From positions 444,924-508,923 of the forward strand of contig NZ_LMSE01000002.1 in assembly GCF_001428065.1 (NCBI RefSeq): a DNA stretch of 64,000 nt. The letters are read 5' to 3'. The DNA is from Nostocoides sp. Soil756. Lineage in GTDB: Bacteria > Actinomycetota > Actinomycetes > Actinomycetales > Dermatophilaceae. Numbering within the stretch: position 1 is the first letter of the stretch; each line of letters begins with the position of its first letter. The notes under the pieces were generated by a model. It saw nothing but the letters and a program-made list of their open reading frames with translations, had not been told where the DNA came from and did no database searches. Below are positions 14,330 through 35,158 of this stretch, piece by piece. The position numbers and the translations under genes were made by a program.

Positions 14330-14378
14330 CCGGCGGCCGCGCCTCCCATCGAGGCTGCCGGCCAGCTCGGTCGATCGG

Positions 14379-14408
14379 CCGAACGGACTACCTCCCCGAA
14401 CCGTTCGG
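14379..14408. promoter_or_regulatory. inverted repeat upstream of the flp operon (putative operator)
   Basis: CCGAACGG (14379-14386) and CCGTTCGG (14401-14408) form a perfect 8-bp inverted repeat around 14 bases, with half-sites about two helical turns apart. The same half-sites, in the same order with a 15-base spacer, occur upstream of the distant TadE copy (33238-33268). That recurrence favours a protein-binding site over a terminator; the loop is long for a terminator and no U tract follows. Confidence 0.6.
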
Positions 14409-14523
14409 GCGGGCGACGTAGAACCCATCGGGCCATGTGCAAAGGCAGTCGCTCCCTGGAGACTGGGTCCTGCTCGACTACCACCTCGGCCCCCGAGACC
14501 ACATCCCGAAAGGTTCCACCGTC

Positions 14524-14691
14524 ATGACCAAGGCCATCATCAAGCTCCAGCAGCTCCGCTCCGAGAAGGGTGCGACCGCCGTCGAGTACGGCCTCATGGT
14601 CGCCCTCATCGCGATCGTCATCATCGTCGCCGTCGCCGCTCTGGGCACCAACCTGTCGGACCTGTTCACCGAGGTCTCCGGCAGCGTCTGA
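14524..14691 (+). CDS. flp: Flp-type IVb pilin, copy 1
   Basis: A 55-residue pilin. The prepilin motif EKG/ATAVEY (cleavage after Gly, conserved Glu at +5, Tyr at +6) is followed by one long hydrophobic helix GLMVALIAIVIIVAVAALG and a short polar tail. The leader before the cleavage site is basic and short, as usual for Flp. Start ATG 14524 follows a GAAAGG ribosome-binding site. A 30-codon frame (14435-14527) ends in an ATGA overlap with this start. First gene of the Tad operon; forms the pilus fibre after processing by a prepilin peptidase, which is not encoded in this window. Confidence 0.92.
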   Translation: MTKAIIKLQQLRSEKGATAVEYGLMVALIAIVIIVAVAALGTNLSDLFTEVSGSV

Positions 14692-14776
14692 GTCTCAAAC
14701 GTTCTCGAGGGCGTCGGCCGCGGTCGGTTCACCCGGCCCGGCCGGCGCCTTCGCCGTACCGGAAAGAAGGAAGGTC

Positions 14777-14950
14777 ATGAGTCTCCCGCTGATCGCCCGC
14801 ATGTACTCCCCCCGTCGACTCGAGACCGGCGCCACTGCCGTCGAGTACGCCCTCATGGTCGCCCTCATCGCCCTCGTGATCATCGTGGCCGTGGCGCTGC
14901 TCGGCACGAGCGTGTCGGGCCTCTTCCAGGACGCCTCCACCAAGATCTGA
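14777..14950 (+). CDS. flp: Flp-type IVb pilin, copy 2
   Basis: A 57-residue paralog of the preceding pilin with ETG/ATAVEYALMV and the helix ALIALVIIVAVALLG. The leader and tail differ (SLPLIARMYSPRR; SGLFQDASTKI), so this is an old duplication rather than a recent copy. GGAAGG lies a few bases before ATG 14777. An 85-bp spacer separates it from copy 1. It may be a minor pilin or an alternative major subunit. Confidence 0.9.
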   Translation: MSLPLIARMYSPRRLETGATAVEYALMVALIALVIIVAVALLGTSVSGLFQDASTKI

Positions 14951-15073
14951 GAGTCCCGACGGCTCCCGCCACGGAGGCTTCCCGCCTCGTGTCGGCGGCA
15001 GGATTAGGATTCGTCCCAGCCCGAGCACGCCCGTTGTGGCGCCGCTCGTCATCTCCCGCGAAAGGGGAGCACC

Positions 15074-15463
15074 GTGGCCACCAGGAGCCGTCGTCGTGAG
15101 CGGGGAGCCGCTGCCGTCGAGTTCGCGCTTCTGCTGCCTGTGCTGGTTCTGCTCATCGGTGGCATCGTCGACTACGGACGCTACTTCTTCACCCAGGTGC
15201 AGTTGTCCAACGCAGCCCGGGAAGGGGCGCGTGCGGCCATCGTCGGCGGCGACCCCGCCGTCCGAGCCAAGGCCGCCGGGGGTGCCACGCCGGGATGGAC
15301 CGATGTTCAGCCGACGGACATCGTCGGCAGCTGCACTATCTCTCCGGCCGGCGGGGTCAGTGTCACGACCCATGCGAACTTCCGGTTCTACTTCGTCAAC
15401 TTCCTTCCCGGTGTGCCAGCCACACTCGTCGTCAAATCCACCGCGAAGATGGGGTGCTCATGA
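15074..15463 (+). CDS. tadE: TadE-like pseudopilin
   Basis: The 129-residue protein starts with RRRERG/AAAVEFALLLPVLVL, the TadE prepilin-like signature with Glu at +5, then a single N-terminal helix and a secreted domain with SNAAREGARAAIVGG. TadE proteins are processed like pilins and belong to the Tad assembly apparatus. GTG 15074 is preceded by AAAGGGGAGC. Its TGA overlaps the TadG start (ATGA). Two further TadE proteins lie 18-20 kb downstream. Confidence 0.87.
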   Translation: MATRSRRRERGAAAVEFALLLPVLVLLIGGIVDYGRYFFTQVQLSNAAREGARAAIVGGDPAVRAKAAGGATPGWTDVQPTDIVGSCTISPAGGVSVTTHANFRFYFVNFLPGVPATLVVKSTAKMGCS

Positions 15464-16674
15464 ACCAGGACAAGCGCCGTCCTCACCTGCGGCGACAGTA
15501 TGAGCGTGGGGGAGCGGCCGCGCTGATCGCGGTGATCCTCTCGGGTGGTGTCATGCTCGGAGTCTCCGCCTTGGCCATCGACGTCGGATCCATCTGGTCG
15601 GAGCGTCGCCAGCTCCAGAACGGAGCGGACGCTGCGGCGCTGTCGCTCCTCAAGCAGTGCAGGACGGGAAACGCGTTCTGTACGAGCGCCAACCCGCAGT
15701 CCAACACGGCCATCACCGGCTACACCCGGACGAACGTCCAGGACGGGAGCGCCAGTATCGACCAGGTCTGCGGGCGTGGCTACGCGGGGCTGACGGCATG
15801 CCCGGCCCCTGTAGCCGACACGACCGCGAACCTCTCCGAATGCTTGCCGCTTCCGGCGTCCGTGCCCTCCACCGTTCCCTACGTCCAGATCAAGGTGGGC
15901 ACGGCCAACGATTCGAGCCAGGCTTCGTCACTGCTACCCGGCTTCTTCAGCCGAGCGCTGACCGGCTCTGACAACCCCCACGTCGTTGCGTGCGCGCGCG
16001 CCGTGATCGGGTCGCCGGGAAGCACCGGTACCACGCTCCCGCTGACCATCAGCGTCTGCGACTGGTACGACGCCACCAAGAACGGGTTCGCTCCTTCACC
16101 GCCCTACACCCCGGCCCCGGTCGCTGCCCCGAACAATCCCGCGAGCAACGTGCCAGCGGCACTGGCACCGTTCGTCGCCAAGATCACGGCGCACGAGAAC
16201 AGCAATCCCTCGACCGTCTGCGGCCCCTCCATGAATGCCCCCGGCGGCTTCGGATGGCTCGACGATCTCGATGGCTCCGACAACTGTGCCGCGAAGTACA
16301 ACGCCAAGGGCGAAGCGGCCGGCAAGCCAGGCGGCCCGCCGACCAATGGCTGTAAGAACTCAGCCCTCCAGGCCTATCTGGGTAAGGAGGTGCTCATACC
16401 GGTGTTCAAGTCTGTCGTGGACAACGGCAACAACACGGTCTACACACTCGAGGGGATTTCCTCCTTCTACCTGGTGGGCTGGGACAACATGCAGACCCTC
16501 ACTCCCGGTAAGGACTACAGCGTCTACAAGCCGCCGGTGAACAACTTCTGCGGGACCGGGGTGAACGCGAAGTCCTGCATCTGGGGTTGGTTCACCTCGC
16601 CCATCGTGCCCCTGGGCTCTCTCAGCTTCGACACCCCTGGACTCGGCCCCAGCACTCCTGGCCTCATCGGCTAG
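15460..16674 (+). CDS. tadG: TadG-like pilus assembly protein
   Basis: This 404-residue protein has the TadE/G-like N-terminal segment (RGGAAALIAVILSGGVMLGVSALAIDVG) followed by WSERRQLQNGADAAALS, the conserved post-helix region. The large exported C-terminal part contains several cysteines, GGFGWLDDLDGSDNC, a VLIPVFKSVVDNG strand and a SSFYLVGW block. The two TadG proteins at 33.8-36.8 kb share the GWLD and V-Y/F-x-x-Y blocks. ATG 15460 overlaps the TadE stop. Confidence 0.83.
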   Translation: MNQDKRRPHLRRQYERGGAAALIAVILSGGVMLGVSALAIDVGSIWSERRQLQNGADAAALSLLKQCRTGNAFCTSANPQSNTAITGYTRTNVQDGSASIDQVCGRGYAGLTACPAPVADTTANLSECLPLPASVPSTVPYVQIKVGTANDSSQASSLLPGFFSRALTGSDNPHVVACARAVIGSPGSTGTTLPLTISVCDWYDATKNGFAPSPPYTPAPVAAPNNPASNVPAALAPFVAKITAHENSNPSTVCGPSMNAPGGFGWLDDLDGSDNCAAKYNAKGEAAGKPGGPPTNGCKNSALQAYLGKEVLIPVFKSVVDNGNNTVYTLEGISSFYLVGWDNMQTLTPGKDYSVYKPPVNNFCGTGVNAKSCIWGWFTSPIVPLGSLSFDTPGLGPSTPGLIG

Positions 16675-16724
16675 ATCCTTCCTGCCCTGCCCTGCAAGCC
16701 CTCACTCGTTTAAGGAAATCTCCG

Positions 16725-17552
16725 ATGGGACGACGCATCCTCGCCATCATCGCCGCCGCGGTCATCGCACTGGTCGGTGCCGTACTCGTGCTCGTGTACG
16801 CCCGGGGGGCCGACGCCCGCGCGGTCGCAGCCGCCAGCCCGGTGCCGGTCTATGTCACCAACCAGGTCGTGCCGGCCGGGACCTCACTCAAGGACGCGGT
16901 GCGTCTGGGTGAGGTCTCGCAGACCCGGGTCGCGGCCCGGGCTAAGCCGGCAGGCGCTCTCGAGACCATCGACGAGACCAACGGAGCCCTGGTCGCGCTC
17001 ACCGACATCCAGCCCGGTCAGTATGTCCTCTCGGCCGCCTTCGGTGACACGCCGGTAGGACAGAAGGCGATCCAGGTCGCCGCCGGCAAGCTCGCGGTCT
17101 CGGTGCAGCTCGCTGACCCCGCGCGCGTCGGTACCTTCGTGACGCCGGGCTCCTACATCACCATCTTCATGACCTACCCCCTGGCCAAGCTGGGCGAGAC
17201 CGCCGGGAGCGCCAAGCCCACGACCACCAGTGGGTCCGGTACGCAGCCCTCGGCCGACGGCGCCAGCGCCACCTCGGTGCTGCTCGACAACGTCAAGGTC
17301 ATCGCCATGGGCAACGCGCTGTTGACGCCCACCCAGCAGCAGCAGCAGGCCGCAGCCCAGGGCGGCGACGCCGCGCCCGCGCCCACCGGCGGGTTCCTGG
17401 TCACCGTCGAGGTCGACCCCACGCAGGCAGCTCGCCTCATCCAGGGCATCAACAACTACACGCTGTACGCCGGCCTGCGGGGATCCGAGCTGAAGATCGA
17501 CCCCAATTTGCAGGTGTCGGACCTGACCATGCTCAAGGACAAGACCCGGTGA
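16725..17552 (+). CDS. cpaB: CpaB/RcpC-like Flp pilus protein
   Basis: The 275-residue product has an N-terminal membrane anchor (ILAIIAAAVIALVGAVLVLVYARG), then a SAF-like region (PVYVTNQVVPAGTSLKDAVRLG, ALTDIQPGQYVLSAAFG) and the CpaB core PARVGTFVTPGSYITIFMTY. A Gln/Ala-rich insert (TPTQQQQQAAAQGG) separates the last two strands. CpaB proteins sit at the cell envelope in Tad systems. ATG 16725 is 50 bp after the TadG stop; the 3' end overlaps CpaE as GTGA. Confidence 0.85.
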   Translation: MGRRILAIIAAAVIALVGAVLVLVYARGADARAVAAASPVPVYVTNQVVPAGTSLKDAVRLGEVSQTRVAARAKPAGALETIDETNGALVALTDIQPGQYVLSAAFGDTPVGQKAIQVAAGKLAVSVQLADPARVGTFVTPGSYITIFMTYPLAKLGETAGSAKPTTTSGSGTQPSADGASATSVLLDNVKVIAMGNALLTPTQQQQQAAAQGGDAAPAPTGGFLVTVEVDPTQAARLIQGINNYTLYAGLRGSELKIDPNLQVSDLTMLKDKTR

Positions 17553-18739
17553 ACATCCTCTGGGATCCCGACCCCACTGCCCTCGAGCGGTACCGCTTCG
17601 CCCTCGGCCAGAACACCCAAGCCCTGGACTCGTCCGGGATGGTCTCGCGCGCCATCCACGACAACCCGCAGATCCAGCAGCTGGTCATCGGCGCCGACGT
17701 GCCGCTCGACCAGGCCTGCCAGCTGGCCGAGACCACCCGGCTCGAGCGCCCCGAGCTCGGCGTCATCCTGCTGCGCACCCGCGTCGACGTCACCGCGCTG
17801 TCGCAGGCACTGCGGGCCGGTGTCCGTGAAGTCGTCTCGGCCGACGACCACACCGCCATCGCCGACGCGCTACGCCGCAGCCGCGACCTGACCTCGAAGC
17901 TGGCCGGCCACGCCGCGGGCGGCAACCTCAAGGAGGGGCGCGTCGTCACCGTCTTCTCCGCCAAGGGCGGGGTGGGCAAGACCACGCTTTCCACCAATAC
18001 CGCGGTGCACCTGGCCCACAGCGGGCTGCGTACCCTGCTCGTCGACCTCGACCTGTCCTTCGGGGACGTCGCCATCAGCCTCCAGCTGGTGCCGACCCAG
18101 TCGGTGTACGACGCGGTCTCGATGAGCGGCCATCTCGACGAGGACGCGCTGCGCAGCATCGTGGTCACGCACGAGGAGAGCGGGCTCGACGTCCTCTGCG
18201 CGCCCAACGACCCGGGCGATGCCGACCGCATCCCGGTGCCGACCGTCACCGAGCTGCTGAAGATCGCCCGGCGCTACTACGACTACGTCATCGTCGACAC
18301 CCCGCCGTCGTTCACCGAGCACGTGCTCGCGGCCATCGACATCTCCGACTCGCTGGTCCTCATCGCGACCCTCGACATCCCGGCCGTGAAGAACCTGCGG
18401 GTGGCCATCGACACCCTCGACATGATCGGCAGCCCCAAGGACGCCCGCATCATCGTCCTCAACCGGGCCGATGCCAAGGTCGGGCTGCGGCCCGAGGACG
18501 TCGAGGCCGCCATCAAGACCCCGATCGCCGTCAACATCCCCAACTCGCTGACCGTCCCCGCGTCGGTGAACCGGGGCGTGGCGATCGTGCTCGACGAGCC
18601 GAAGGCCGCCGTGGCGGCCGCCATCAAGACCCTCGTCGACTCCCACATCCGTACCGCGCACGCGGAGGAGCCGTCCCACGACGGATCCCCGGCCCCGGCC
18701 GCCCCGCAGCGCAAGAGCCTGTTCAGGGGGCGCAAGTGA
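17549..18739 (+). CDS. cpaE: CpaE/TadZ-like localisation ATPase
   Basis: A 396-residue MinD/ParA-family protein. Residues 1-125 form a receiver-like, non-catalytic N-terminal domain; residues 139-146 are a deviant Walker A (KGGVGKTT), followed by TLLVDLDLSFGDVAISL and YDYVIVDTPPSF. TadZ/CpaE proteins place the Tad machine in the cell. The GTG start overlaps the cpaB stop and the 3' end overlaps the next gene, so cpaB-cpaE-cpaF are coupled. A second, divergent CpaE-like protein is encoded at 44.3-45.5 kb. Confidence 0.88.
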   Translation: MNILWDPDPTALERYRFALGQNTQALDSSGMVSRAIHDNPQIQQLVIGADVPLDQACQLAETTRLERPELGVILLRTRVDVTALSQALRAGVREVVSADDHTAIADALRRSRDLTSKLAGHAAGGNLKEGRVVTVFSAKGGVGKTTLSTNTAVHLAHSGLRTLLVDLDLSFGDVAISLQLVPTQSVYDAVSMSGHLDEDALRSIVVTHEESGLDVLCAPNDPGDADRIPVPTVTELLKIARRYYDYVIVDTPPSFTEHVLAAIDISDSLVLIATLDIPAVKNLRVAIDTLDMIGSPKDARIIVLNRADAKVGLRPEDVEAAIKTPIAVNIPNSLTVPASVNRGVAIVLDEPKAAVAAAIKTLVDSHIRTAHAEEPSHDGSPAPAAPQRKSLFRGRK

Positions 18740-20124
18740 GTCTCGCCGACCGTCTTGACAGTGTTCGCCGGGCCCAGGCCGCGGCCGAGGCACCCACCAC
18801 CTCCGCCACCGCGGCCGCGCGCCCCAACGCCGCCGCACGTCGGCGCGACGCCGACCCGTTCCAGGAGGTGAAGAACCGTGTGCACCAGGGGCTGATCGAC
18901 ACCCTGGGCCCGCGGCTCTACGACCCGCACCTGCCCGAGGCCGAGCTGGCCCAGCAGGTGCGCCAGACCCTGCAGACCACGATCGACGCCGAGCAGACCC
19001 CGCTCTCGCACGCCGACCGCACCCGCATCGCCCAGGAGGTCTCGGACGAGATCCTCGGCCACGGCCCGCTCGAGCCGCTGCTGCGCGACCCGGACATCAG
19101 CGAGATCATGGTGAACGGCGCCGACATGATCTACGTCGAGCGCAGCGGCAAGCTGTACCGCGTCGAGACCCACTTCTCCAACGAGAGCCACCTGCGCCGC
19201 GTCATCGACAAGATCGTCGGCCGGGTCGGCCGGCGCGTCGACGAGGCCAGCCCGCTCGTCGACGCCCGCCTCCCCGACGGCTCGCGCGTCAACGCGGTGA
19301 TCGCGCCCATCGCCCTCGACGGCGCGATGCTCACCATCCGTAAGTTCTCGCAGGACCCCTACACCGACGCCGACCTCATCGCCTTCGGCACCATCACCCC
19401 GTCCGTGCGCGACTTCCTCAAGGCCTGCGTGCTCGGCCGCCGCAACATCATCATCTCCGGTGGCACCGGCTCGGGGAAGACGACCACGCTCAACGTCATC
19501 TCCTCGTTCATCCCCGAGGACGAGCGCATCGTCACCATCGAGGACGCGGCCGAGCTCCAGCTGAACCAGGACCACGTGCTGCGCCTCGAATCGCGCCCGG
19601 CCAACATCGAGGGCCGCGGCTCGATCTCGATCCGCGAGCTGGTGCGCAACTCCCTGCGGATGCGGCCCGACCGCATCGTCGTCGGTGAGGTCCGTGACGG
19701 TGCCGCGCTCGACATGCTCCAGGCCATGAACACCGGCCACGACGGCTCGATCACCACCGTGCACGCCAACACCCCGCGCGACTCGCTCGCCCGTCTCGAG
19801 ACGATGGTGCTCATGGCCGGCATCGACCTGCCGGTGCGCGCCATCCGCGAGCAGGTGGCCGGCGCGCTCGACCTGGTCGTGCAGCAGGCCCGCCTCAAGG
19901 ACGGCTCGCGGCGCATCGTCGCCGTCAGCGAGGTGGTGGGCATGGAGGGCGACATCATCACCCTCCAGGACATCTTCACCTTCGACTGGGCGGCCGGCCG
20001 CGACGAGAACGGCCGCTTCAAAGGCACGCTGGTCTCCACCGGGCTGCGACCCAAGTTCCTCCAGGACCTCACCGACCTGGGCGTCGACCTGCCGCTCACG
20101 ACCTTCATCAACAGCACGCGATGA
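18736..20124 (+). CDS. cpaF: CpaF/TadA secretion ATPase
   Basis: A 462-residue GspE/PilT-superfamily ATPase. Walker A is GGTGSGKTT (242-250), the Walker B region is RPDRIVVGEVRDGAALDML, and the catalytic His box is GHDGSITTVHANTPRD. The N-terminal region (about 40-230) matches CpaF (GPLEPLLRDPDISEIMVNG). It powers assembly of the Flp pilus with the TadB/TadC membrane proteins that follow. GTG start with GTGA overlap to cpaE. Confidence 0.94.
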   Translation: MSLADRLDSVRRAQAAAEAPTTSATAAARPNAAARRRDADPFQEVKNRVHQGLIDTLGPRLYDPHLPEAELAQQVRQTLQTTIDAEQTPLSHADRTRIAQEVSDEILGHGPLEPLLRDPDISEIMVNGADMIYVERSGKLYRVETHFSNESHLRRVIDKIVGRVGRRVDEASPLVDARLPDGSRVNAVIAPIALDGAMLTIRKFSQDPYTDADLIAFGTITPSVRDFLKACVLGRRNIIISGGTGSGKTTTLNVISSFIPEDERIVTIEDAAELQLNQDHVLRLESRPANIEGRGSISIRELVRNSLRMRPDRIVVGEVRDGAALDMLQAMNTGHDGSITTVHANTPRDSLARLETMVLMAGIDLPVRAIREQVAGALDLVVQQARLKDGSRRIVAVSEVVGMEGDIITLQDIFTFDWAAGRDENGRFKGTLVSTGLRPKFLQDLTDLGVDLPLTTFINSTR

Positions 20125-22118
20125 CGCTCCGTCCATCCTCCCGTCTGCGCCGCCTGGCGGTGCTCGGCGCCGTGCTCTCGGCGGCCGCGGCCACCGTGCT
20201 CGCACCCGCAGCCGTCGCCGCCGACACCGTTCCGGCGACGCTCAGCGACGTCCGCATCACGACCGACACGCTCAGTGCCACCATCGTCCTACGCTCCAGC
20301 GACAAGACCCTGACCGTGGACCCCGGTTCGGTCAAGGTCACCATCGGCGGCAAGGACGCTGAGGCGAGCGTCGCCTCCGCCGCCCAGCAGGCGCGCTCGA
20401 CGATGCTCGTCATCGACACCAGCGGGTCGATGGGTGCCACCGGGATGGCCACCGTTCGCACCTCGGTCCAGCAGTTCCTGGCCGCGGTGCCGAAAGACGT
20501 CAAGGTGGGGATGGTCTCGTTCGCCTCCACCTCCGGCGTCGATGTGGCTCCCACCACCGACCGGGCCAAGATCAGCAAAGCGGTCGGCGGCCTGCGCTCG
20601 CAGGGCGAGACCGCCCTCTACGCCGCCGTGCAGCAGGCCGTGGCCGCCCTCGGTACCGAGGGCGAGCGCAGCATCATCTTGCTCAGCGACGGCGGCGACA
20701 CCGTGGCCGGGCTCAAGGGCGGCGCCGCCGGCGACAAGGCCCAGCGTCAGGCGGCGCTCGACGCCCTCGCCAAGGCGAAGGTCCGGGCCGAGGTCATCGC
20801 CTTCAAGTCACCCGAGTCCAACGGCACCACGCTCAAGCAGTTCGCCGCCGCCGGCGGCGGGTCAGTGGCCAATGCCGCCAACAGCAGCGCGGTCGCCGCC
20901 GCCTTCTCGGCGGCCGCCCGGACGCTGGACTCCCAGGCGGTGCTCACCGTGCAGCGCCCCGCCGGGGTCTCCGGCGACGCCCGCGTGGTCGTCACCGGCA
21001 CCGCGTCGGGCCAGCCGTTCGCGCTCAGTAACGCCGTCGACCTCGGCGACACCGCTCCCGTGGAGGTCGAGCCGTCGGCCTCCGGGAGTGTGCCGGCTCT
21101 CGATGCCACGCCGCCAGCCGTGAACCAGATGTCGGCACTGGCGCCCAGCCTGCTCTTCCCGGCCGTCGGCGTCGTCTTCCTCGGGGTCTTCGCCATCGGC
21201 GTGGCCCTGGTCAACCCTTCGTTCCAGAGCAAGAAGAGCGCCCGTATCGAAGCCATCGAAGGGTACGGCTTCGGCCGCGCGCCGGCGGCGCACAAACAGA
21301 CCGCCAGCACCGCCGCGATCGGGCAGCAGCTGGTCACCATGGGCGACCAGATCATGGAGGGTCGCGACTCGACCACCAAGACCATGGCCATGCTCGACCG
21401 GGCCGACCTCCCCTGGCGGGCGGGGGAATGGCTGGTGCTGCGCATCCTGGCCGCCGCGGTGGCCGTCGTCGTCGGCTGGATCGCGCTGGCGGCGCTGCCG
21501 CCGGTCGGCGCGCTCATCGGCCTGGTCCTCGGTATCTTCCTCCCCCCGATGGCGCTGAAGTTCATCGCCAAGCGGCGCTCGAACAAGTTCGAGGCCGTGT
21601 TGCCCGACGTCCTCATGCTGGTGGCGACGTCGCTGGCCTCCGGCTTCAGCCTCCTCCAGGCGCTCGACGCGGTGGCCAAGGACGCCCCCGAGCCGGCGGC
21701 CAAGGAGTTCAGCCGGGCCCTGGCCGAGTCGCGCATCGGAGCCGACGTCAGTGACGCTCTGGACCACATGGCGCACCGCATGGACAGCCCCAACATGCGC
21801 TGGACCACGATGGCCATCCGCATCCAGCGTGAGGTCGGCGGCAACCTGGCCGAGACCCTCCGCACCACGGCCGCCACCCTGCGCGAACGAGAGATGCTGC
21901 GCCGCCAGGTCAAGGCGCTCTCGGCCGAAGGACGGTTGTCGGCCTACATCCTCATCGCGCTGCCCATCGGCATCTTCCTCTACAGCACCCTGGTCAACTA
22001 CGACTACGTGAGCCTGCTGTGGACCACCTTCTACGGCATCGTGATGTCCGTCGGCGGCGTCATCTCGATGGTCATCGGCATCTTCTGGATGCGCAACGTC
22101 GTCAAGATCGAGGTCTGA
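20121..22118 (+). CDS. tadB: von Willebrand A domain fused to TadB (T2SS F-like)
   Basis: The 665-residue protein joins two modules in one frame. Residues 1-34 are a signal peptide; residues 93-270 form a vWA domain with a full MIDAS (D99-T-S101-G-S103, T164, D190 in LLSDGGD). A membrane helix follows near 338-365, then a cytoplasmic stretch, two helices (LVLRILAAAVAVVVGWIALA) and the T2SSF domain (FEAVLPDVLMLVATSLASGFSLLQALDAVAKD, about 490-620). The T2SSF part is the TadB inner-membrane platform; the vWA part would sit outside the membrane. Standard TadB proteins are about half this length. ATG 20121 overlaps the cpaF stop. Confidence 0.88.
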   Translation: MTLRPSSRLRRLAVLGAVLSAAAATVLAPAAVAADTVPATLSDVRITTDTLSATIVLRSSDKTLTVDPGSVKVTIGGKDAEASVASAAQQARSTMLVIDTSGSMGATGMATVRTSVQQFLAAVPKDVKVGMVSFASTSGVDVAPTTDRAKISKAVGGLRSQGETALYAAVQQAVAALGTEGERSIILLSDGGDTVAGLKGGAAGDKAQRQAALDALAKAKVRAEVIAFKSPESNGTTLKQFAAAGGGSVANAANSSAVAAAFSAAARTLDSQAVLTVQRPAGVSGDARVVVTGTASGQPFALSNAVDLGDTAPVEVEPSASGSVPALDATPPAVNQMSALAPSLLFPAVGVVFLGVFAIGVALVNPSFQSKKSARIEAIEGYGFGRAPAAHKQTASTAAIGQQLVTMGDQIMEGRDSTTKTMAMLDRADLPWRAGEWLVLRILAAAVAVVVGWIALAALPPVGALIGLVLGIFLPPMALKFIAKRRSNKFEAVLPDVLMLVATSLASGFSLLQALDAVAKDAPEPAAKEFSRALAESRIGADVSDALDHMAHRMDSPNMRWTTMAIRIQREVGGNLAETLRTTAATLREREMLRRQVKALSAEGRLSAYILIALPIGIFLYSTLVNYDYVSLLWTTFYGIVMSVGGVISMVIGIFWMRNVVKIEV

Positions 22119-22119
22119 C

Positions 22120-23037
22120 ATGTTCCTGCTGGTCATCGGGTTGCTCTTCGTGGTCGCCGCGATCGTCACGATCGTCATGGCCGTCTCGTTCGGTGCCGAG
22201 CGCTCCACCGGCGTCGCCCGTTCGCTGGAGATGCTGAACTACAAGGCGACCAGTCGCGAGGTCGGCAAGAACGAGCTCGGCGCCCAGGAGCGCCTCTTGG
22301 TACCCGTGCTCGAGCGGCTGCGCGGCCTTGCGGTGCGGCTGTCACCGGGCGGCACCGTGGGCCGCATCGGCCGTTCGCTCGACAAGGCGGGCAACCCGCC
22401 CATGTGGACCGTGGAGCGGGTGATGGGGGCCAAGGGCCTGGGCGTCATCATCGCGCCGGTGCTCGCTCTGCTCGTCCTCGGGCTCAGCGTCACCGGGCTG
22501 CTGGCGGCGGCCGGCGCCGCCGCCGCGTTCTTCTTCCTGCCCGACCTGCTGGTCTACAACCTCGGCCTGAAGCGCCAGCAGGAGCTCAGCAAGGGCCTGG
22601 CCGATGCGCTCGACATGCTCACCGTCTGTGTCGAGGCGGGCCAGGGCTTCGACGCCGCGATCCTGCAGGTCGCTCGTACCGTCGAGGGCCCGATCGCCGG
22701 TGAGTTCGCCCGCGTGCTCTCGGAGATGCAGATCGGCAAGTCGCGCGGTGAGGCGTTCTCGGCGCTCGGTGAGCGCACCACCGCCCCCGAGGTCAAGAAC
22801 TTCGTCAGCACCCTGGTGCAGGCCGACCGCCTGGGTCTGCCCATCGCCGCCGTGCTGCGCGAGCAGACCAAGGAGATGCGGGTCGTACGCCGTCAGAAGG
22901 CGGAGGAGGCGGCCCAGAAGGTGACCGTCAAGATCCTCTTCCCGCTGCTGCTGTGCATCTTCCCCGCCCTGTTCATCGTCATCATCGGCCCCGGTGCCAT
23001 CACCATGATCCAGGCGTTCTCCGGCGGCGGTCTCTGA
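22120..23037 (+). CDS. tadC: TadC-like type II secretion F family protein
   Basis: A 305-residue inner-membrane protein with an N-terminal helix, a central hydrophobic pair and the T2SSF core (LKRQQELSKGLADALDMLTVCVEAGQGFDAAILQVAR), ending in a helix at FPLLLCIFPALFIVIIGPGAITM. It pairs with TadB to form the platform driven by CpaF. It begins one base after the tadB stop and closes the Tad operon. Confidence 0.92.
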   Translation: MFLLVIGLLFVVAAIVTIVMAVSFGAERSTGVARSLEMLNYKATSREVGKNELGAQERLLVPVLERLRGLAVRLSPGGTVGRIGRSLDKAGNPPMWTVERVMGAKGLGVIIAPVLALLVLGLSVTGLLAAAGAAAAFFFLPDLLVYNLGLKRQQELSKGLADALDMLTVCVEAGQGFDAAILQVARTVEGPIAGEFARVLSEMQIGKSRGEAFSALGERTTAPEVKNFVSTLVQADRLGLPIAAVLREQTKEMRVVRRQKAEEAAQKVTVKILFPLLLCIFPALFIVIIGPGAITMIQAFSGGGL

Positions 23038-23053
23038 CCGCTAGCCCGGCAGC

Positions 23054-23070
23054 CGCGGGGTAGCCCCGCG
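23054..23070. terminator. short hairpin after the Tad operon
   Basis: CGCGGGG-TAG-CCCCGCG forms a 7-bp stem between the convergent tadC (+) and response regulator (-) genes. No U tract follows on either strand. Confidence 0.4.
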
Positions 23071-23088
23071 CGGTCGCGGGCCGCTCGG

Positions 23089-23745
23089 TCAGGTGCGGTC
23101 GACGTCCTGGACCAGCCCGAGACGCACCGCGGCGATCACGGCGCTGGCGCGGTTGTGGGCGCCGAGCTTGTCGTAGATCTTGCCGATGTGGGTCTTGACC
23201 GTCGAGGGGCTCATGTAGAGCGACTTGCCGACCTGGGCGACGGAGGCCCCCTCGACGAGGAGCTTGAGCACCTCGGTCTCGCGCGAGGTCAGCGAGGTCT
23301 GCGGCTGCTCGTGGCGGCGGCGCATCGCCTCGGCCAGGCCGGAGGCCGAGAACTCGAGCGGGAAGTCGGCGGCCCGGCGCACGGCCGACACCACCTGGTC
23401 GGACGGGGCGCTCTTGCGCACCAGCGCCGAGGCGCCGGCGTCGAGGGCCTCGAGCAGCGTGGAGTCGTCGTTGAGCATGGTGAGGACGACGAGCCCGATG
23501 TCCTTGGACTGCTCGCGCACGATCCGGACCAGGTCGAGCCCGCTGCCGTCGGGCATCGTGACGTCGATGACGGCCACCACGCGGCCCGGGGGCGGAGTGC
23601 GCAGCAGCTTGTCGAACAGCGCGCGTCCCTCGGCCAGCGACCCGGCCTGCCCCACGACCGTGACCTCGTCCTGGGCTCCGAGCATCCCTGCCACGGCCTC
23701 GCGCACCACCGCGTGGTCGTCGACGAGTACGACACTGATCGCCAC
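23089..23745 (-). CDS. NarL/FixJ-family response regulator
   Basis: A 218-residue regulator: receiver domain with the acidic pair DD (9-10), phosphoacceptor D61 (AVIDVTMPDG) and K at SALVRKSAPS, then a LuxR-type HTH (LTSRETEVLKLLVEGASVAQVGKSLYMSPSTVKTHIGKIYDKLG). It lies 16 bp after the histidine kinase gene and is convergent with the Tad operon, so it is a candidate regulator of pilus expression. The link to the inverted repeats upstream of the Tad genes is inference. Confidence 0.92.
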   Translation of the reverse strand: MAISVVLVDDHAVVREAVAGMLGAQDEVTVVGQAGSLAEGRALFDKLLRTPPPGRVVAVIDVTMPDGSGLDLVRIVREQSKDIGLVVLTMLNDDSTLLEALDAGASALVRKSAPSDQVVSAVRRAADFPLEFSASGLAEAMRRRHEQPQTSLTSRETEVLKLLVEGASVAQVGKSLYMSPSTVKTHIGKIYDKLGAHNRASAVIAAVRLGLVQDVDRT

Positions 23746-23761
23746 AGATCCTCCAGAAGTC

Positions 23762-25357
23762 TCAGACGGCGCGGCCGGAGCCGACGGCCCCGGGCTCCTC
23801 GATGCTCAGGCTAACGGTCAGGCGCCCGTTGGACTCGTTACGCACGGCGAGTGTCCCGCCCAGGTCGTCGATGGCGGAGGTGTGGTAGGTCCGGCGGGCG
23901 CGCTTGGCGTCGCCGTCGTGCGACACCATGACCTTGGCCGGCCCCACCACCGAGCTGCTCAGGGTGACCCACGCGTTGCGCGCCCCGGCCCCCTGGGCGT
24001 CGGCCAGCACGTCCATCACGAGGCGGTGGACCAGCATCTCGACGCGGGGGTCGAGCCGGCGCCGGCCCTCGCTGACCGTGATGGTGGTCCGTACGCCGGT
24101 CATGCTGCCGAAGCTCTGCACCGCGGCGCCGAGCACGGCCCCCAGCCCCGACCCCGGGCGCTCGGCCACCCGCAGGTCGGTGATGTGCAGGCGCAGGTCG
24201 GCCATGGCATCGCTCAGGCGCTCGCGCAGGCCGTCGAGCGCGTCGCGCATCGTCGTGCCGGGCGGCCCCGCCTGGGATCGCAGCGCGTCCACCTGGTAGC
24301 CGAGGGCGGCGAGCTCCTGGGCGATGCCGTCGTGGATGTCGCGGGCGATGCGGTTGCGCTCCTCGAGGCTCGCGTACTGGCGCAGGTTGCCGAAGAGGAG
24401 GCCGGCCTGGACGGTCGGGGCGAGCCGGCGGGTGACCTCGGCCACCGCCTTGCGCTCGCTCTCGGTGAACGAGTGGTCCATTCCGCGTTCCACGACGACC
24501 ACGGTCGTGGGGCCGTTGCCGTACGCGAAGGGGACGACCAGGGCCACGCGCCGGCCGAGCTCGTCCTCGAACGGCACCTCGGTGGGCCGCCAGGACCCGG
24601 CGTTGGAGGCCAGGATCGTCGAGAGGGCCTCGCTGAGGTGCCACGGGGCGCGGGTCGAGCCGCGCAGGGCCACCGGCACCAGGTGCTCGGTGTCACTGGC
24701 GACGAGGACGGCGCTGCGCGACGACGGCACCTCGGCCGAGAGCAGGTCGAGGGCCAGCGTGGCACCGGCGGGGGCGTCGAGCCCGGTCGACATCTCCTCC
24801 GAGAGGTCGTGCAGGCGCTGGATCAGCTGGATGGCCTCGCGGGCGGCGGGGTCCGCCTCGTCGAGCTCCTGCTCGTCGACCAGCCGCTGGTTCCAGGCAC
24901 CGAGGGCTCCGAGGACGAGGGCCGAGAAGATCCAGGCGATGAACCCGACCGCGGTGAGCTCCCGGTGCTGCCCCGTGGCGAGCACCGCCCCGAAGGCGGC
25001 CGACGAGGCGATGCACGAGAAGAGGTAGCCGGCCTTCCGGAACCGGGACCCGAAGTGGTAGGCGGGGATGAGCACCAGCAGCGCGGCCCCGATGTCGACG
25101 GAGGCGTAGCCGGTGCCGGCGGCGGCGGCGGCCAGCGCCAGCAGCGCCATGACCACGCCGTCGAGCAGACCCTGGCGTGCGATCGGCATCCGGTCGAGCG
25201 CGTCCACCACGACGTCGAGCACGATGACGGTCAGGAGCCAGGGAAGGCTCGAGACGAACGACCCGGTCGCGACGGCGAGGAAGACGCTGAGCACGGCGAA
25301 CGCCAGCCGGATCTTCCCGGACGCGTCGAGCCATCCCAGCGTGAGGAGGCGGAGCAC
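23762..25357 (-). CDS. histidine kinase with degenerate ATPase domain
   Basis: About 531 residues. The first 150 hold five or six membrane helices, followed by a GAF-like region (about 190-330) and a HisKA_3-type helix RNRIARDIHDGIAQELAALG with H342. The C-terminal HATPase should contain an N box and G1/G2 motifs, but only VHRLVMDVLADAQGAGARNA and VMVSHDGD are seen: the N-box Asn and the glycine-rich lid are missing. It is probably a weak or inactive kinase that could act as a sensor or phosphatase. I start at GTG 25357, six bases after a TACCCT box; GTG 25363 is an alternative. Confidence 0.8.
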   Translation of the reverse strand: MLRLLTLGWLDASGKIRLAFAVLSVFLAVATGSFVSSLPWLLTVIVLDVVVDALDRMPIARQGLLDGVVMALLALAAAAAGTGYASVDIGAALLVLIPAYHFGSRFRKAGYLFSCIASSAAFGAVLATGQHRELTAVGFIAWIFSALVLGALGAWNQRLVDEQELDEADPAAREAIQLIQRLHDLSEEMSTGLDAPAGATLALDLLSAEVPSSRSAVLVASDTEHLVPVALRGSTRAPWHLSEALSTILASNAGSWRPTEVPFEDELGRRVALVVPFAYGNGPTTVVVVERGMDHSFTESERKAVAEVTRRLAPTVQAGLLFGNLRQYASLEERNRIARDIHDGIAQELAALGYQVDALRSQAGPPGTTMRDALDGLRERLSDAMADLRLHITDLRVAERPGSGLGAVLGAAVQSFGSMTGVRTTITVSEGRRRLDPRVEMLVHRLVMDVLADAQGAGARNAWVTLSSSVVGPAKVMVSHDGDAKRARRTYHTSAIDDLGGTLAVRNESNGRLTVSLSIEEPGAVGSGRAV

Positions 25358-25363
25358 CCGCAC

Positions 25364-25369
25364 AGGGTA
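25364..25369 (-). promoter_or_regulatory. -10 box for the histidine kinase gene
   Basis: On the minus strand TACCCT precedes GTG 25357 by six bases, the spacing expected of a leaderless transcript. This is the reason for preferring that start. No clear -35. Confidence 0.4.
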
Positions 25370-25469
25370 CGTCCCGGGGGTCGCCGAGCCTCCCGATTCC
25401 TGGGGATCGCGCGGGTCCCTGTGTGATGATGGCCCCCACTGTGACGGACCGGGGAAGGCAAGGGCCCAA

Positions 25470-26147
25470 GTGAAGGGACGCGTGCTCGTCGTCGACGACG
25501 ACCTGGCACTGGCCGAGATGCTCGGCATCGTGCTGCGCGGGGAGGGGCTCGAGACCGAGCACGTGGCCGACGGGTCGTCGGCCATGGAGGCGTTCCGCCG
25601 CTACCGCCCCGACCTGGTGCTGCTCGACGTGATGCTCCCGGGCCTCGACGGGCTCGAGGTCTGCCGTCAGATCCGCGGCGAGTCCGGGGTGCCCATCGTG
25701 ATGCTCACCGCTCGCACCGACACCGTCGACGTCGTGCTGGGCCTGGAGTCCGGCGCCGACGACTACGTGGTGAAGCCGTTCAAGCCCCAGGAGCTCATCG
25801 CGCGCGTGCGCGCCCGGCTGCGCCGCGGTGACGAGCCCGAGCCCGAGCGGCTGGCCATCGGCGACCTCGCCATCGACGTCGCGGGCCACTCGGTCACCCG
25901 GGCCGGCGTGCCGCTCAGCCTCACCCCGCTCGAGTTCGACCTGCTGGTGGCACTGGCCCGCAAGCCCTGGCAGGTCTTCACCCGTGAGGTCCTGCTCGAG
26001 CAGGTGTGGGGCTACCGCCACGCCGGCGACACCCGCCTGGTCAACGTCCACGTGCAGCGTCTGCGCTCGAAGATCGAGCACGACCCCGAGCACCCCGAGA
26101 TCGTCGTCACCGTCCGCGGCGTGGGCTACAAGGCGGGCCAGTCCTGA
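25470..26147 (+). CDS. mtrA: MtrA response regulator
   Basis: A 225-residue OmpR/PhoB-family regulator starting VKGRVLVVDDDLALAEMLG, with D53 as phosphoacceptor (LLDVMLPG) and VVKPFKPQEL, then a winged helix ending IVVTVRGVGYKAG. MtrA controls cell-wall and division genes in Actinobacteria. GTG 25470 follows GGGGAAGG. mtrB begins two bases after its stop and lpqB follows, the conserved mtrA-mtrB-lpqB order. It is divergent from the histidine kinase gene. Confidence 0.95.
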   Translation: MKGRVLVVDDDLALAEMLGIVLRGEGLETEHVADGSSAMEAFRRYRPDLVLLDVMLPGLDGLEVCRQIRGESGVPIVMLTARTDTVDVVLGLESGADDYVVKPFKPQELIARVRARLRRGDEPEPERLAIGDLAIDVAGHSVTRAGVPLSLTPLEFDLLVALARKPWQVFTREVLLEQVWGYRHAGDTRLVNVHVQRLRSKIEHDPEHPEIVVTVRGVGYKAGQS

Positions 26148-26149
26148 CG

Positions 26150-29574: not shown

Positions 29575-29732
29575 GCCTCGCGGCCGCTGCGCTCGCTGCG
29601 GTCTGCGGTCGCAGGTCGGGGTCCACGACACGCTCGTCCGCGCTCGTCCACAGCGGGCACCGTGCGCTGCCCCCGTCCCCAGGGCGCCCGGCGGCACCGC
29701 TGAACTCACCGGGCCGGCGGCAGGCTGGTGGG

Positions 29733-30440: not shown

Positions 30441-30462
30441 CGACCGAGGCTGGCGGTAGCTG

Positions 30463-30491
30463 TTGTGGGTACACCCGGGGGCGACTAGCGT
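30463..30491 (+). promoter_or_regulatory. SigA-like promoter upstream of hpf
   Basis: TTGTGG (30463-30468) and TAGCGT (30486-30491) are separated by exactly 17 bases. The predicted transcription start falls on the A of ATG 30498, so the transcript would be leaderless for the small upstream frame and carry an 80-nt leader for hpf. Confidence 0.6.
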
Positions 30492-30497
30492 CTGGTC

Positions 30498-30530
30498 ATG
30501 GACCCCATCCTCGGGAGGTGGTGCAGCTGA
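30498..30530 (+). CDS. possible 10-residue leader peptide upstream of hpf
   Basis: ATG GAC ... TGA encodes MDPILGRWCS. All nine codons after the ATG end in G or C, as in the real genes here, and the ATG coincides with the predicted transcription start. It ends 47 bases before the hpf GTG. Leaderless short upstream frames are common in actinobacteria and some control the gene behind them; translation of this one is not shown. Confidence 0.35.
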   Translation: MDPILGRWCS

Positions 30531-30577
30531 CGTCACAGCCACGCTGAGCCCGACATCACCGAGCACGAGGAGGACCA

Positions 30578-31240
30578 GTGGACATCGTCGTCACCGGACG
30601 GCACCTGAACATCTCCGACCGATACCGGGAGCACATCGAGGAGAAGCTGGGGAAGATCACCCAGCTCGAGCCCCGGACCCGGCGGGTCGAGGTCATGGTC
30701 AGTCACGAGCCCAACCGGCGCCAGGCCAAGGCCTGCGACCGGGTCGAGGTCACCTGCTACGCCAAGGGGCCCGTCGTGCGGGCCGAGGCGTGCGCCGACG
30801 ACAAGTACGCGGCGCTGGACGTGGTGGTGGACAAGCTCATGGAACGGCTCAGGCGCCGCAGCGACCGCAGGCAGGTCCACCGGGGACGTCGTACCCCGGA
30901 GTCGGTGGCGCGGGCGACCGCGCGGGTCGAGGCCGAGAGCGTCGTGGGTGCGCCGGAGCTCGACACGATGCCCGAGGACGGGCCCTTCGGCGACTCGCCC
31001 ATCGAGGTCCGCGAGAAGGTCCACCGCTCCACGCCCATGACCCTGTCCGACGCGCTCGCCGAGATGGAGGCGGTCGGGCACGACTTCTTCCTCTTCCACG
31101 ACGCCGACACCGACCGGGCCAGCGTGCTCTACCGCCGCCGGGGCTGGTCCTACGGCGTGCTGCACCTCGACCTCGACGGTCACGACGAGAGCGGCGCCGA
31201 GACCGGGCCCAGCGACCGGGTCGACGCCGCGGCCTCGTGA
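30578..31240 (+). CDS. hpf: ribosome hibernation-promoting factor (long HPF)
   Basis: A 220-residue long-form HPF. Residues 1-100 are the RaiA/YfiA domain (MDIVVTGRHLNISDRYREHIEEKLGKI..) that binds the small subunit. Residues 160-215 are the C-terminal dimerisation domain (MTLSDALAEMEAVGHDFFLFHDADTDRASVLYRRRGWSYGVLHL) that pairs ribosomes into 100S particles. The GTG start follows GAGGAGGA. In mycobacteria the gene immediately precedes secA; here 6.9 kb separates them. Confidence 0.95.
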   Translation: MDIVVTGRHLNISDRYREHIEEKLGKITQLEPRTRRVEVMVSHEPNRRQAKACDRVEVTCYAKGPVVRAEACADDKYAALDVVVDKLMERLRRRSDRRQVHRGRRTPESVARATARVEAESVVGAPELDTMPEDGPFGDSPIEVREKVHRSTPMTLSDALAEMEAVGHDFFLFHDADTDRASVLYRRRGWSYGVLHLDLDGHDESGAETGPSDRVDAAAS

Positions 31241-31291
31241 GGCCGCGGACCGGGCGGCCCGCCGCGGCCCTCCACCTGCGAGGATGGTCCC

Positions 31292-32002
31292 GTGGACGAG
31301 CCGACGCGTGAGGTACCCGGGGGTCACGGCGACCGTGACCCCCGGGGCATCCGCGTGGTCATCGCCGACGACCACCAGATGTACCGACAGGGCATGGCCA
31401 TCGTGGTCGAGCTCGACGGGGTCGCCCGCGTCGTGGGCCAGGCCAGCACCGGTGACGAGGCGGTCGAGCTCTGCCGTCGGCTGCGGCCCGACGTCGTCCT
31501 GATGGACGTGCGGATGCCCGGCGTGGGCGGCATCGAGGCCTGCCGGCGCCTCCACGGCCTCGAGCCCGACATCCGCATCCTCATGCTCACCATGAGCGAC
31601 GACGAGGGGGACCTGTTCGAGGCCATCAAGGCGGGCGCCAGCGGCTACCTGCTCAAGGACCTGCCGGGCGAGGAGGTCTCCGAGGCCATCCGCCGGGTGC
31701 ACGACGGCCAGGCGATCATCCCGCCGGGGATGGCCGCGACCCTGCTCCAGGAGTTCAGCCGGCTCGCGCAGGAGGAGCCGGCCGGGGCCGACGACTCCGC
31801 CCACCTCACCGAGCGCGAGGTCGAGGTGCTGCGGCTGGTCGCGCGCGGCCTGGCCAACCGCGAGATCGCCGACGCGCTCGGCATCGCCGAGAACACGGTC
31901 AAGAACCACGTGCGCAACATCCTCGAGAAGCTCCACATCCACTCCCGGGTCGAGGCCGCGGTGTACGCCCACCGCCAGCGCCTGATGCCCACGGATGAGT
32001 GA
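31292..32002 (+). CDS. NarL/FixJ-family response regulator (orphan)
   Basis: A 236-residue regulator with receiver (DD at 26-27, D72 in LMDVRMPG, K in YLLKDLPG) and LuxR-type HTH ([43 protein letters not shown]). No kinase is adjacent. It overlaps the next gene by eight bases (ATGAGTGA), which ties it to the DNA glycosylase. It precedes the duplicated TadE/TadG locus, whose operator-like repeat begins inside the glycosylase 3' end. Confidence 0.92.
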
Positions 32003-33251
32003 CGCGACTCCGCTCCGGCTGACCCGCCCCGCCGCCCGTCGCATCGCGCTGGCCGCCCAGGGTTTCGGGCGCCCACGCCCGACGCGGCCCGGCACCCGCG
32101 ACCTCCAGCGTGTGCTCGACGCGGTCGCCGTGGTGCAGATCGACAGCGTCAACGTCGTCGTCCGCAGCCAGTACCTGCCGTTCTACTCGCGCCTCGGGCC
32201 CTACGACCGGGCCCTGCTGGACCGCGCCCGCGACGTCGCGCCGCGCCGGGTCGTGGAGTACTGGGCGCACGAGGCGTCGCTGGTCGCCCCCACCACGTGG
32301 CCCCTGCTCGACTTCCGGATGCGCCGGGCCCGCTCCGACGCCTGGGGCGGGATGCGGCGGGTCGCGCGCGATCGCCCCGACCTGGTGGCGACGGTGCTGG
32401 CCGAGGTCGCGGCCGCCGGGCCGATGACCAGCCGCGAGGTCGAGGCCGCGTTGGCGCACGACCTGCCGCGGGGGCGCGACGAGTGGGGGTGGAACTGGTC
32501 GCTGGTCAAGAGCGCGCTGGAGCACCTTTTCTGGGCGGGCGAGCTGTCCAGTGCGGGGCGCACCGCCCAGTTCGAGCGGCGGTACGCCGTCCCCGCGCGG
32601 GTGCTGCCCCCGGCCGTGCGGGCCGAGGCCCTCGACCCGGCGCGGCGACCCGGCGACGACGAGGCGTTCCGCCGGTTGGTCGAGCTGGCGGCGCGGGCCC
32701 ATGGGGTGGGCAGCGAGCAGTGCCTGCGTGACTACTTCCGGCTCAAGCCCGACCAGGCTCGGCCGGCCGTCGCCGCGCTCGTGGCCGATGGCACCCTGCT
32801 GCCGGTGACGGTCGAGGGGTGGCACCGGCCGGCGTACCTGCACCGCGACGCGCGTCGCCCGCGGCGGGTCGCGGCTCGCGCGCTGCTCTCGCCCTTCGAC
32901 TCCCTGGTGTGGCAGCGCGAACGGGTGCGGGCCCTGTTCGGGTTCGACTTCAGGCTGGAGATCTACGTCCCCGAGCCGCAGCGGGTGCACGGCTACTACG
33001 TCCTGCCGTTCCTCCTCGGCGACGAGCTGGTGGCCCGGGTCGACCTCAAGAGCGACCGCGCGGCCGGGGTACTGCGGGTGCGGCGGTGCACGTGGGAGGA
33101 CGGGCGCGGCGGGGCGAGCGACCGGGCCGAGCTCGAGGCCGAGCTGGCGACCTTCGCACAGTGGCTGGGGCTGGCTTGTCCGGTCCACGCAGGGCTCGAG
33201 AGCCCGTCGTCCCGTGACTCCCACGCGGCATCTCGACCCGAACGGACGTGA
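31995..33251 (+). CDS. AlkX/YcaQ-type DNA glycosylase (winged-helix family)
   Basis: The 418-residue protein belongs to the HTH_42 family. QID at residues 48-50 ([23 protein letters not shown]) is the catalytic QxD motif of E. coli YcaQ/AlkX, which unhooks DNA interstrand crosslinks, as opposed to the QxQ of Alk[41 protein letters not shown] and [22 protein letters not shown] are further family blocks. Bases 33238-33251 overlap the inverted repeat upstream of TadE. Confidence 0.85.
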
Positions 33252-33268
33252 TGCACTGGCCCGTTCGG
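33238..33268. promoter_or_regulatory. inverted repeat upstream of the TadE/TadG locus (putative operator)
   Basis: CCGAACGG (33238-33245) and CCGTTCGG (33261-33268) are identical to the half-sites before the flp operon, with a 15-base spacer instead of 14. The left half lies in the last codons of the glycosylase gene; the right half is 38 bases before the TadE ATG. The AC following the left half-site and a CGG just after the right one are also shared. Confidence 0.6.
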
Positions 33269-33306
33269 CGGATCCGGGTCCGCCCCGCGTAGGTCACGCT
33301 TGTCCT

Positions 33307-34913: not shown

Positions 34914-34961
34914 GGACCGTGGGCGCCTGACCACCCGTGCGGACCCGAGGGTGGGCTCTAC

Positions 34962-35050: not shown

Positions 35051-35106
35051 GACCGCAGACGGGCGTCGGGTCGCCCAGGGGCGCCGACCCGGATGTCGGG
35101 CGTGGT

Positions 35107-35124
35107 CTGGCCCGTTCGGAGGAT
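35107..35124. promoter_or_regulatory. conserved element upstream of TadE copy 2
   Basis: CTGGCCCGTTCGGAGGAT matches 33256-33273 at 17 of 18 bases and lies 34 bases before ATG 35159 (33 in copy 1). It retains the CCGTTCGG half-site, but the partner half-site 23 bases upstream has decayed to CCGGATGT. The second copy may have lost operator function. Confidence 0.5.
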
Positions 35125-35158
35125 GACGACGGCCGGGAGCGGCTGGCATCCTGTGAAG

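Follow-up and report, generated by a model that had tools for sequence, protein, structure and literature searches.

Little seems to have been published on how actinobacteria control their Tad (Flp) pili. The window analysed here is a GC-rich stretch of 64,000 nucleotides from contig NZ_LMSE01000002.1 of Nostocoides sp. Soil756, which has actinobacterial genes and carries two separate Tad-type loci, one headed by flp pilin genes and the other, 19 kb away, by a gene for a TadE-like protein. A paired repeat stands before each. Comparison of these repeats with those of related genomes makes it likely that they serve as operators for a two-component system whose genes adjoin the Tad cluster, with the response regulator RR1 as the predicted binder and the sensor kinase HK1 as its probable partner.

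The flp locus reads flp, flp, TadE-like, Tad, CpaB, CpaE, CpaF, TadB and TadC, followed by the convergent RR1 and HK1 genes. Beyond HK1 come mtrA-mtrB-lpqB, a second NarL-type regulator (RR2), an AlkZ-like gene and the TadE2/TadE3 locus. The features are listed below, with bit scores from a matrix built on 29 loci: 11 from the genus and 18 RR1-linked loci reaching at least 11 bits, where RR1-linked means that RR1 lies within 20 kb of flp on the same contig. The site at 14373 belongs to this training set, and those at 33255 and 35106 lie outside it.

14373..14392: predicted operator 1 upstream of flp, GATCGGCCGAACGGACTACC, with the core CCGAACGG at 14379-14386; the best score in the window, 21.3 bits, from a matrix that includes this site
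14395..14414: predicted operator 2 upstream of flp, weaker, with the core CCGTTCGG at 14401-14408; its centre lies 22 bp from that of operator 1
14434..14439, + strand: putative -10 hexamer CATGTG, which would place the start near 14446
14524..14691, + strand: flp pilin 1 (Flp_Fap), by its translation (Pfam PF04964, E 8.8e-17)
14777..14950, + strand: flp pilin 2, a second Flp-like open reading frame (ORF), the second match to the flp query, in the frame of ORF 14570-14950
15295..23037, + strand: Tad operon, with Pfam matches to Tad/TadE-G-like and RcpC/CpaB proteins, CpaE-like and CpaF-like ATPases, and TadB-like and TadC-like membrane proteins
22365-22384: operator-like site within the TadC coding region, 17.3 bits, second in the window
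23089..23745, - strand: RR1, NarL/FixJ-type response regulator (Response_reg PF00072, E 1.5e-15; GerE PF00196, E 3.9e-17)
23762..25585, - strand: HK1, sensor kinase (Pfam HisKA_3), likely partner of RR1, with which it is found in the fetched tad loci
25113-29574: mtrA-mtrB-lpqB (MtrA by NCBIfam; MtrB-type and LpqB-type domains)
31292..32002, + strand: RR2, second NarL-type regulator (Response_reg and GerE), considered and disfavoured as binder
33232..33251: predicted TadE-side operator A, with the core CCGAACGG at 33238-33245; the AlkZ-like ORF runs into it
33255..33274: predicted TadE-side operator B, ACTGGCCCGTTCGGCGGATC, with its core at 33261-33268; 13.2 bits, third in the window
33307..33846, + strand: TadE2, TadE-like (Pfam PF07811, E 2.9e-14)
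35106..35125: third operator-like site, TCTGGCCCGTTCGGAGGATG, 12.6 bits, fourth in the window; absent from the preliminary description of this DNA
35159..35692, + strand: TadE3, TadE-like (Pfam PF07811, E 2.5e-15 on ORF 34937-35692)

At its 5' end the HK1 ORF runs into the ORF of mtrA, which is divergent; HK1 itself therefore probably begins further in. The matrix scan of the window found no operator at the HK1/RR1 promoter. The side on which mtrA-mtrB-lpqB stands varies in the family (L311-L328): it is downstream of RR1-HK1 in the window's genus and upstream of flp in many others.

Paired palindromes upstream of flp and TadE genes

Both repeats are confirmed. The one before flp is CCGAACGG-N14-CCGTTCGG at 14379-14408, and the one on the TadE side is the form with an N15 spacer, at 33238-33268. 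Each has 8-bp arms, and the arm centres lie 22 bp apart at flp and 23 bp apart at TadE, in line with the 22-23 bp of the preliminary description, which had been made from the letters of the window. That description had also found no further paired copies between genes, and CCGAACGG-N8..22-CCGTTCGG indeed matches just these two places in the window. The same pattern, with spacers of 8-22, gave 0 matches in 100 dinucleotide-preserving shuffles of the window, and CCGAACGG is the sole arm used twice among the window's 78 spaced inverted repeats with 8-bp arms. The intergenic placement claimed for both repeats holds for the one at flp but not strictly for the one at 33238, inside which the upstream AlkZ-like ORF (31995-33251) ends.

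The whole genome (G000, 3.47 Mb) has three exact paired matches, namely the two of the window and one on contig C1 (C1:117592-117623; L277:6593-6629). The latter stands a short way beyond serS, 5' of a HisKA_3 kinase gene, which is followed by a gene for a NarL-type regulator. In genome G006 of the same genus, a similar pair follows a gene that corresponds to serS in length and place; the next genes there encode a HAD hydrolase and a DUF1206 protein.

An anchored alignment of the flp upstream cores shows each 8-mer to be the core of a 20-bp palindrome, gATCrrCCGwwCGGyyGATc, and each 8-mer is nearly palindromic by itself. On this alignment, the element is best described as two predicted operators two helical turns apart, rather than as one dimer straddling 22 bp. 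The geometry suggested earlier, that of a dimeric regulator on one face of the DNA, stands insofar as the element is dimer-like and a NarL-type reader is likely; what had been called half-sites are each full palindromic operators. A single dimer site spanning the inverted repeat was rejected, as relatives keep the CCG..CGG cores without a mirror relation. Since that relation between the arms is lost in relatives, the reading as an inverted repeat becomes secondary.

The comparisons drew on 12 genomes of the genus and 149 of the family. flp is present in 11 of the 12 genus genomes, and in all 11 the paired cores stand at the aligned place with an exact core spacing of 14 bp. The first core is CCGAACGG in ten of them and CCGTTCGG in one. 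The second is CCGTACGG in five and CCGTTCGG in two, with ACGTTCGG, CCGTTCGA, TCGTTCGT and TCGAACGG found once each. The best offset for the second site is 22 in nine of the 11 loci.

The pair might instead act as RNA, either as an 8-bp stem with a 14-15-nt loop in the leader or as a terminator of the upstream gene. In G000 and G006 the arms could pair at all eight positions; at flp the upstream ORF stops 50 bp before the site, and at TadE an ORF ends within it. However, the stem loses pairs in nine of the 11 genus species (seven keep 7 of 8, G009 keeps 6 and G001 keeps 5), while the CCG..CGG cores mostly stay. Neither site is followed by a T-run, a -10-like hexamer stands downstream of the repeat at a fixed distance, and the single palindrome seen outside the genus cannot form this stem. 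With the stem weakened in this way and no T-run, a hairpin or terminator was rejected, and a role as RNA of any kind is extremely improbable.

Outside the genus, 81 flp upstream regions were collected from 59 other genomes of the family, taking one place per flp array and leaving out further array copies; together with the 11 from the genus they make 92. Paired CCGWWCGG cores with at most two mismatches occur in 22 of the 81 regions, against 3 of 81 when the regions are read backwards, and the non-genus cores concentrate at -100 to -200 (21/26). A genus-only matrix, built on the 11 genus operator sites and used with a threshold of 12 bits, finds a site in 23 of the 81 regions, in every case at -117 to -227. 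An unbiased count of 7-mers in the 92 regions, comparing -200 to -50 with -500 to -350, places CCGTTCG and CGTTCGG at the top. Among segments of 300 bp, 4.9% reach 12 bits, a figure inflated by the 19 stretches from which they come, most of which were chosen for holding a site; the random control for the genus-matrix scan was drawn partly from loci containing flp promoters. Because site-bearing stretches inflate these random-segment controls, flp loci without a linked RR1 are the better control.

Conservation and placement support the earlier proposal of a regulatory site common to the Tad-type transcription units. The conservation in relatives on which that proposal was to stand is clear at flp and only weak on the TadE side, where it is partial and seen in the nearest species.

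Two other arrangements were seen. In G133 (L316, C1:3483100-3503000), a perfect CCGAACGG-N14-CCGTTCGG pair stands upstream of a short flp match, directly adjoining RR1-HK1; no further tad gene was matched there within the 20 kb fetched. In G016 (L012, L015), which has no flp match, a 28-bp palindrome of the type CCGAACGGGCG-N6-CGCCCGTTCGG occurs in three near-identical copies; it is a different element with the core in common.

Predicted promoter geometry at the two loci

In 23 of the 29 loci, among them 12 of the 18 non-genus ones, the first base of operator 1 is followed at 60-63 bases by the beginning of a hexamer of the form NAT(G/T)NN, a pattern chosen after inspecting the sequences; 15 shifted control windows gave a mean of 1.07. 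In relatives, this -10-like hexamer takes the forms TATGTC, GATGTG or GATTCG. If it is taken as the -10 element and transcription starts 7 bases later, the two flp operators would centre at -63.5 and -41.5.

At the second locus, the distance from operator centre to ATG is 42.5 bp at TadE2 (operator B) and 43.5 bp at TadE3. These distances would fit a leaderless TadE start with the same operator placement. It may be, on the other hand, that the TadE-side repeat is a chance or decayed site and the flp pair alone is functional. A scan for the TadE operator that covered 12 of 20 TadE matches, those at the flp locus being mostly left out, found the TadE2 operator clearly in one other species (G011, 11.6 bits) and half kept in two (G006 and G001), as such a decayed site would lead one to expect. 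However, operator B and the TadE3 site rank third and fourth in the window from outside the training set, at the same distance from a TadE ATG. A nonfunctional TadE-side repeat is rather unlikely.

RR1 as the candidate binder

RR1 has the hallmarks of a NarL/FixJ-type regulator: a receiver and a GerE/LuxR-type domain, a conserved phosphorylation pocket and an adjacent HisKA_3 kinase. The receiver residues D10, D61, T89 and K111 are invariant in 16 of 16 orthologs from other genera. Orthologs, called at E 1e-36 or better in the family and 1e-45 or better outside it, occur in 42 of the 149 family genomes. RR1 was present in 16 of 20 tad loci fetched from other genera, in 15 of these beside TadC.

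The operator was found to go with RR1. Among the non-genus flp promoters, scored with the genus-only matrix, 17 of the 22 that are RR1-linked reach 12 bits, against 6 of the 59 unlinked ones (p 1.3e-8). Counted by genome, the operator is present in 20 of the 26 RR1-bearing genomes and in 1 of the 33 others (p 1.5e-9), and counted by genus and RR1 state in 9 of 13 and 1 of 15 (p 0.001); the Fisher and binomial values count genomes as independent, though they are not. In genus g17, the operator occurs in the one RR1-bearing genome only, and where a genome has more than one flp locus, it is mostly the RR1-linked locus that carries the site, as in G152 (21.5 bits, against 8.7, 8.0 and 11.0 at the unlinked loci). 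Five of the six unlinked positives come from fragmented assemblies, two from G137, which is 79% complete, and one each from G115, G126 and G076. This co-occurrence is a direct observation, as are the sites themselves, their conservation, spacing and position.

Both NarL-type regulators, one beside each locus, had been named in the preliminary description as candidate binders. RR1 co-occurs with the operator in and beyond the family, and RR2 shows no association with it: RR2 orthologs are present in 87 of the 149 family genomes, in 18 of 21 genomes with the operator and in 27 of 38 flp-bearing genomes without it (Fisher p 0.34). RR2 is disfavoured as the binder because its presence does not track the operator, and two nearby NarL-type regulators are thereby narrowed to one RR1-operator pair.

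The association was also sought outside the family. A search of 297 members of the order found RR1 orthologs in 17 genomes of three other families, at 18 loci, all of which were examined. Where flp was found, the gene order is usually HK1-RR1-flp, unlike that of the window. The best site of the whole fetched locus nevertheless lies within 1 kb past the RR1 stop in 14 of the 18 loci, where 1.19 would be expected (P 2e-14, on the assumption of independent loci, which they are not). In eight of the 14 it is directly upstream of the flp match. The site is not so placed in L334, where no tad genes were found, in L347, whose best site is 5' of RR1, or in L339 and L348.

Two other kinds of binder have to be weighed against RR1. 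The gene for MtrA adjoins the Tad region in many family genomes, mtrA-mtrB-lpqB being next to or near the Tad locus in the genus and in many other genera, and MtrA might thus read the sites. However, as an OmpR-type regulator MtrA would be expected to use direct repeats, and in the other families the operator keeps its place with RR1 at loci whose fetched 5-20 kb showed no mtrB or lpqB. Binding by MtrA is highly improbable.

The binder might also be another NarL/FixJ-type regulator, such as RR2, a DesR-like response regulator or a BldM-type orphan, with RR1 merely a stable neighbour. The operator resembles the BldM consensus, each genus genome has at least six matches to a provisional BldM query sequence, the RR1-operator link is broken within the genus in G007 and G006, and the third paired site of the genome lies upstream of another kinase-regulator pair. 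RR2, however, is unassociated with the operator, and the best BldM-like match is just 43% identical, DesR-like in look and also present in G007, which has no flp. Moreover, RR1 tracks the operator across rearranged gene orders, which counts against its being a mere stable neighbour. A binder of this kind is unlikely.

Several observations weigh against the reading of the repeats as RR1 operators. RR1 and the operator are neighbours, so that co-inheritance of one locus type could yield their association without binding, and common descent of one locus type does explain part of it. The 14 positive loci outside the family come from five of eight genera, nine of them from two genera. In L340-L343, the best site lies past the flp match, with a weaker site between RR1 and flp in two of the four, and in L345 and L346 it lies past RR1 but no flp was matched. 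Within the family, an unlinked promoter on contig C9 of the unfragmented genome G144 is a true exception, at 14.0 bits, and 5 of the 22 linked promoters fall below 12 bits (G083 11.1, G128 10.5, G102 9.5, G035 7.7 and G084 6.2). G007 retains RR1 and HK1 but is without flp, TadE matches or the site, and six further RR1-bearing genomes have no flp match. G006 has flp and a perfect pair but just the last 93 residues of RR1, and its locus lacks HK1 and mtrAB-lpqB, with no match to HK1, mtrB or lpqB over the fetched 40 kb. The recognition helix of RR1 is of the general family type. At the other-genus loci, offset 22 is best in 6 of 18 and offsets of 21-23 in 12 of 18, and the second operator is weak there. 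The remaining rows of the 12 scanned TadE matches reach at most 5.8 bits at the TadE operator.

The single palindromes belong with these points. Exact copies of ATCNNCCGWWCGGNNGAT number 54 in the 149 genomes, five of them at flp by position. A control pattern gave 0 hits, but it lacks codon matching and is given no weight. Many random occurrences unrelated to Tad genes had been named beforehand as grounds for giving up the idea of a Tad-specific repeat; this is in part what the single palindromes show, but not the pair, which has three copies in the genome, two of them at Tad loci. In the 20 stretches inspected, with Pfam run on 20 neighbouring genes, no coherent wider regulon was found for the single exact palindromes. 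Since their neighbours are varied (PBP, M6 peptidase, MeaB, ribosomal proteins, dnaN and others), single sites are mostly uninformative.

The RR1 gene itself is altered in two genomes. In G006, a one-contig genome, the RR1 remnant (L068, C1:2103300-2123200) is joined directly to the gene that in G000 comes next after lpqB; the truncation may be a real deletion or a misassembly. In G010, RR1 (L079:7359-8011) matches as two overlapping pieces, as if frame-shifted.

With RR1 as the binder, the switch would work as follows. HK1 would sense a signal and phosphorylate RR1, and dimers of phospho-RR1 would bind the 20-bp palindromes. At flp, the strong operator near -63.5 and the weaker one near -41.5 would lie on the same helix face, so that two dimers could bind cooperatively and bring in RNA polymerase, the promoter having a poor -10 and lacking an evident -35. 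At a distance of 19-21 kb, RR1 would also activate the units of TadE2 and TadE3, whose predicted operators lie about 42-43 bp before the ATGs and whose transcripts are perhaps leaderless. From the sequences, we infer the binding and phosphorylation of RR1, activation rather than repression, and the start sites. These predictions name a regulator, a kinase, an operator sequence and a promoter geometry, and one of them held up in other families, where the gene order differs.

Comparison with known systems

Other phyla are already known to have two-component systems next to tad; the pairing and the operator described here look new for actinobacteria. A literature search found no actinobacterial Tad regulator with a defined operator among the matches listed, several of the listings being empty or incomplete. 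The PprAB two-component system reportedly controls the flp/tad genes in Pseudomonas aeruginosa, in work said to be by Bernard in 2009. Its host is Gram-negative, and the likeness to RR1-HK1 is one in the kind of system. In Pectobacterium, a two-component system adjoining the flp/tad cluster has a positive effect on the transcription of selected Tad genes (PMC3767616). Its genes are linked to the tad cluster, as those of RR1-HK1 are here. The lineage is unrelated, and the words promoter and palindrome have 0 occurrences in the text of that paper (PMC3767616).

The closest solved relative of RR1 is DevR (3c3w), also called DosR, of Mycobacterium tuberculosis. Both are NarL-type regulators, and the parallel may extend to the paired strong and weak sites, spaced here by 22 bp, with one at -41.5 if the -10-like hexamer is taken as the guide. 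The DevR operator sequence differs from the operator here, and the target genes of DevR are those of dormancy. DevR promoters are described as having close-packed strong and weak sites that are bound cooperatively, with the proximal site overlapping the -35 (PMC3029386).

The operator itself resembles that of BldM. The site of the BldM homodimer (Group I) of Streptomyces was found by MEME, with footprinting as confirmation, to be a 16-bp palindrome, TCACcCgnncGgGTGA, and the BldM-WhiI site is given as TGnnCCGnnCGGGTGA (PMC4125116). The CCG-NN-CGG core and the outer TC/GA are common to the BldM site and to TCrrCCGwwCGGyyGA here, whereas the two positions between core and outer bases are rr/yy here and AC/GT in BldM. 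BldM is described as an atypical, orphan regulator, whereas in RR1 the residues of the receiver pocket are present and a kinase is encoded next door. The BldM targets named in the paper are development genes, and pilus and tad go without mention there (PMC4125116). RR1 was rejected as a BldM ortholog, with 32% to the provisional BldM query; the genome's best match to that query is at C6:92069, at 43%. No clear BldM ortholog was found with it in the genus genomes searched, where the best matches are DesR-like.

Taken together with the BldM site, the operator comparisons allow the tentative suggestion that RR1-HK1 might be a dedicated Tad-pilus switch in several families of one actinobacterial order, sharing the operator code TC-N2-CCG-WW-CGG-N2-GA with BldM. 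A BldM-like operator would then extend to a response regulator with a kinase partner, a single system would link the two separate Tad-type loci within the cell, and pilus control and aerial development would use related response-regulator/operator pairs.

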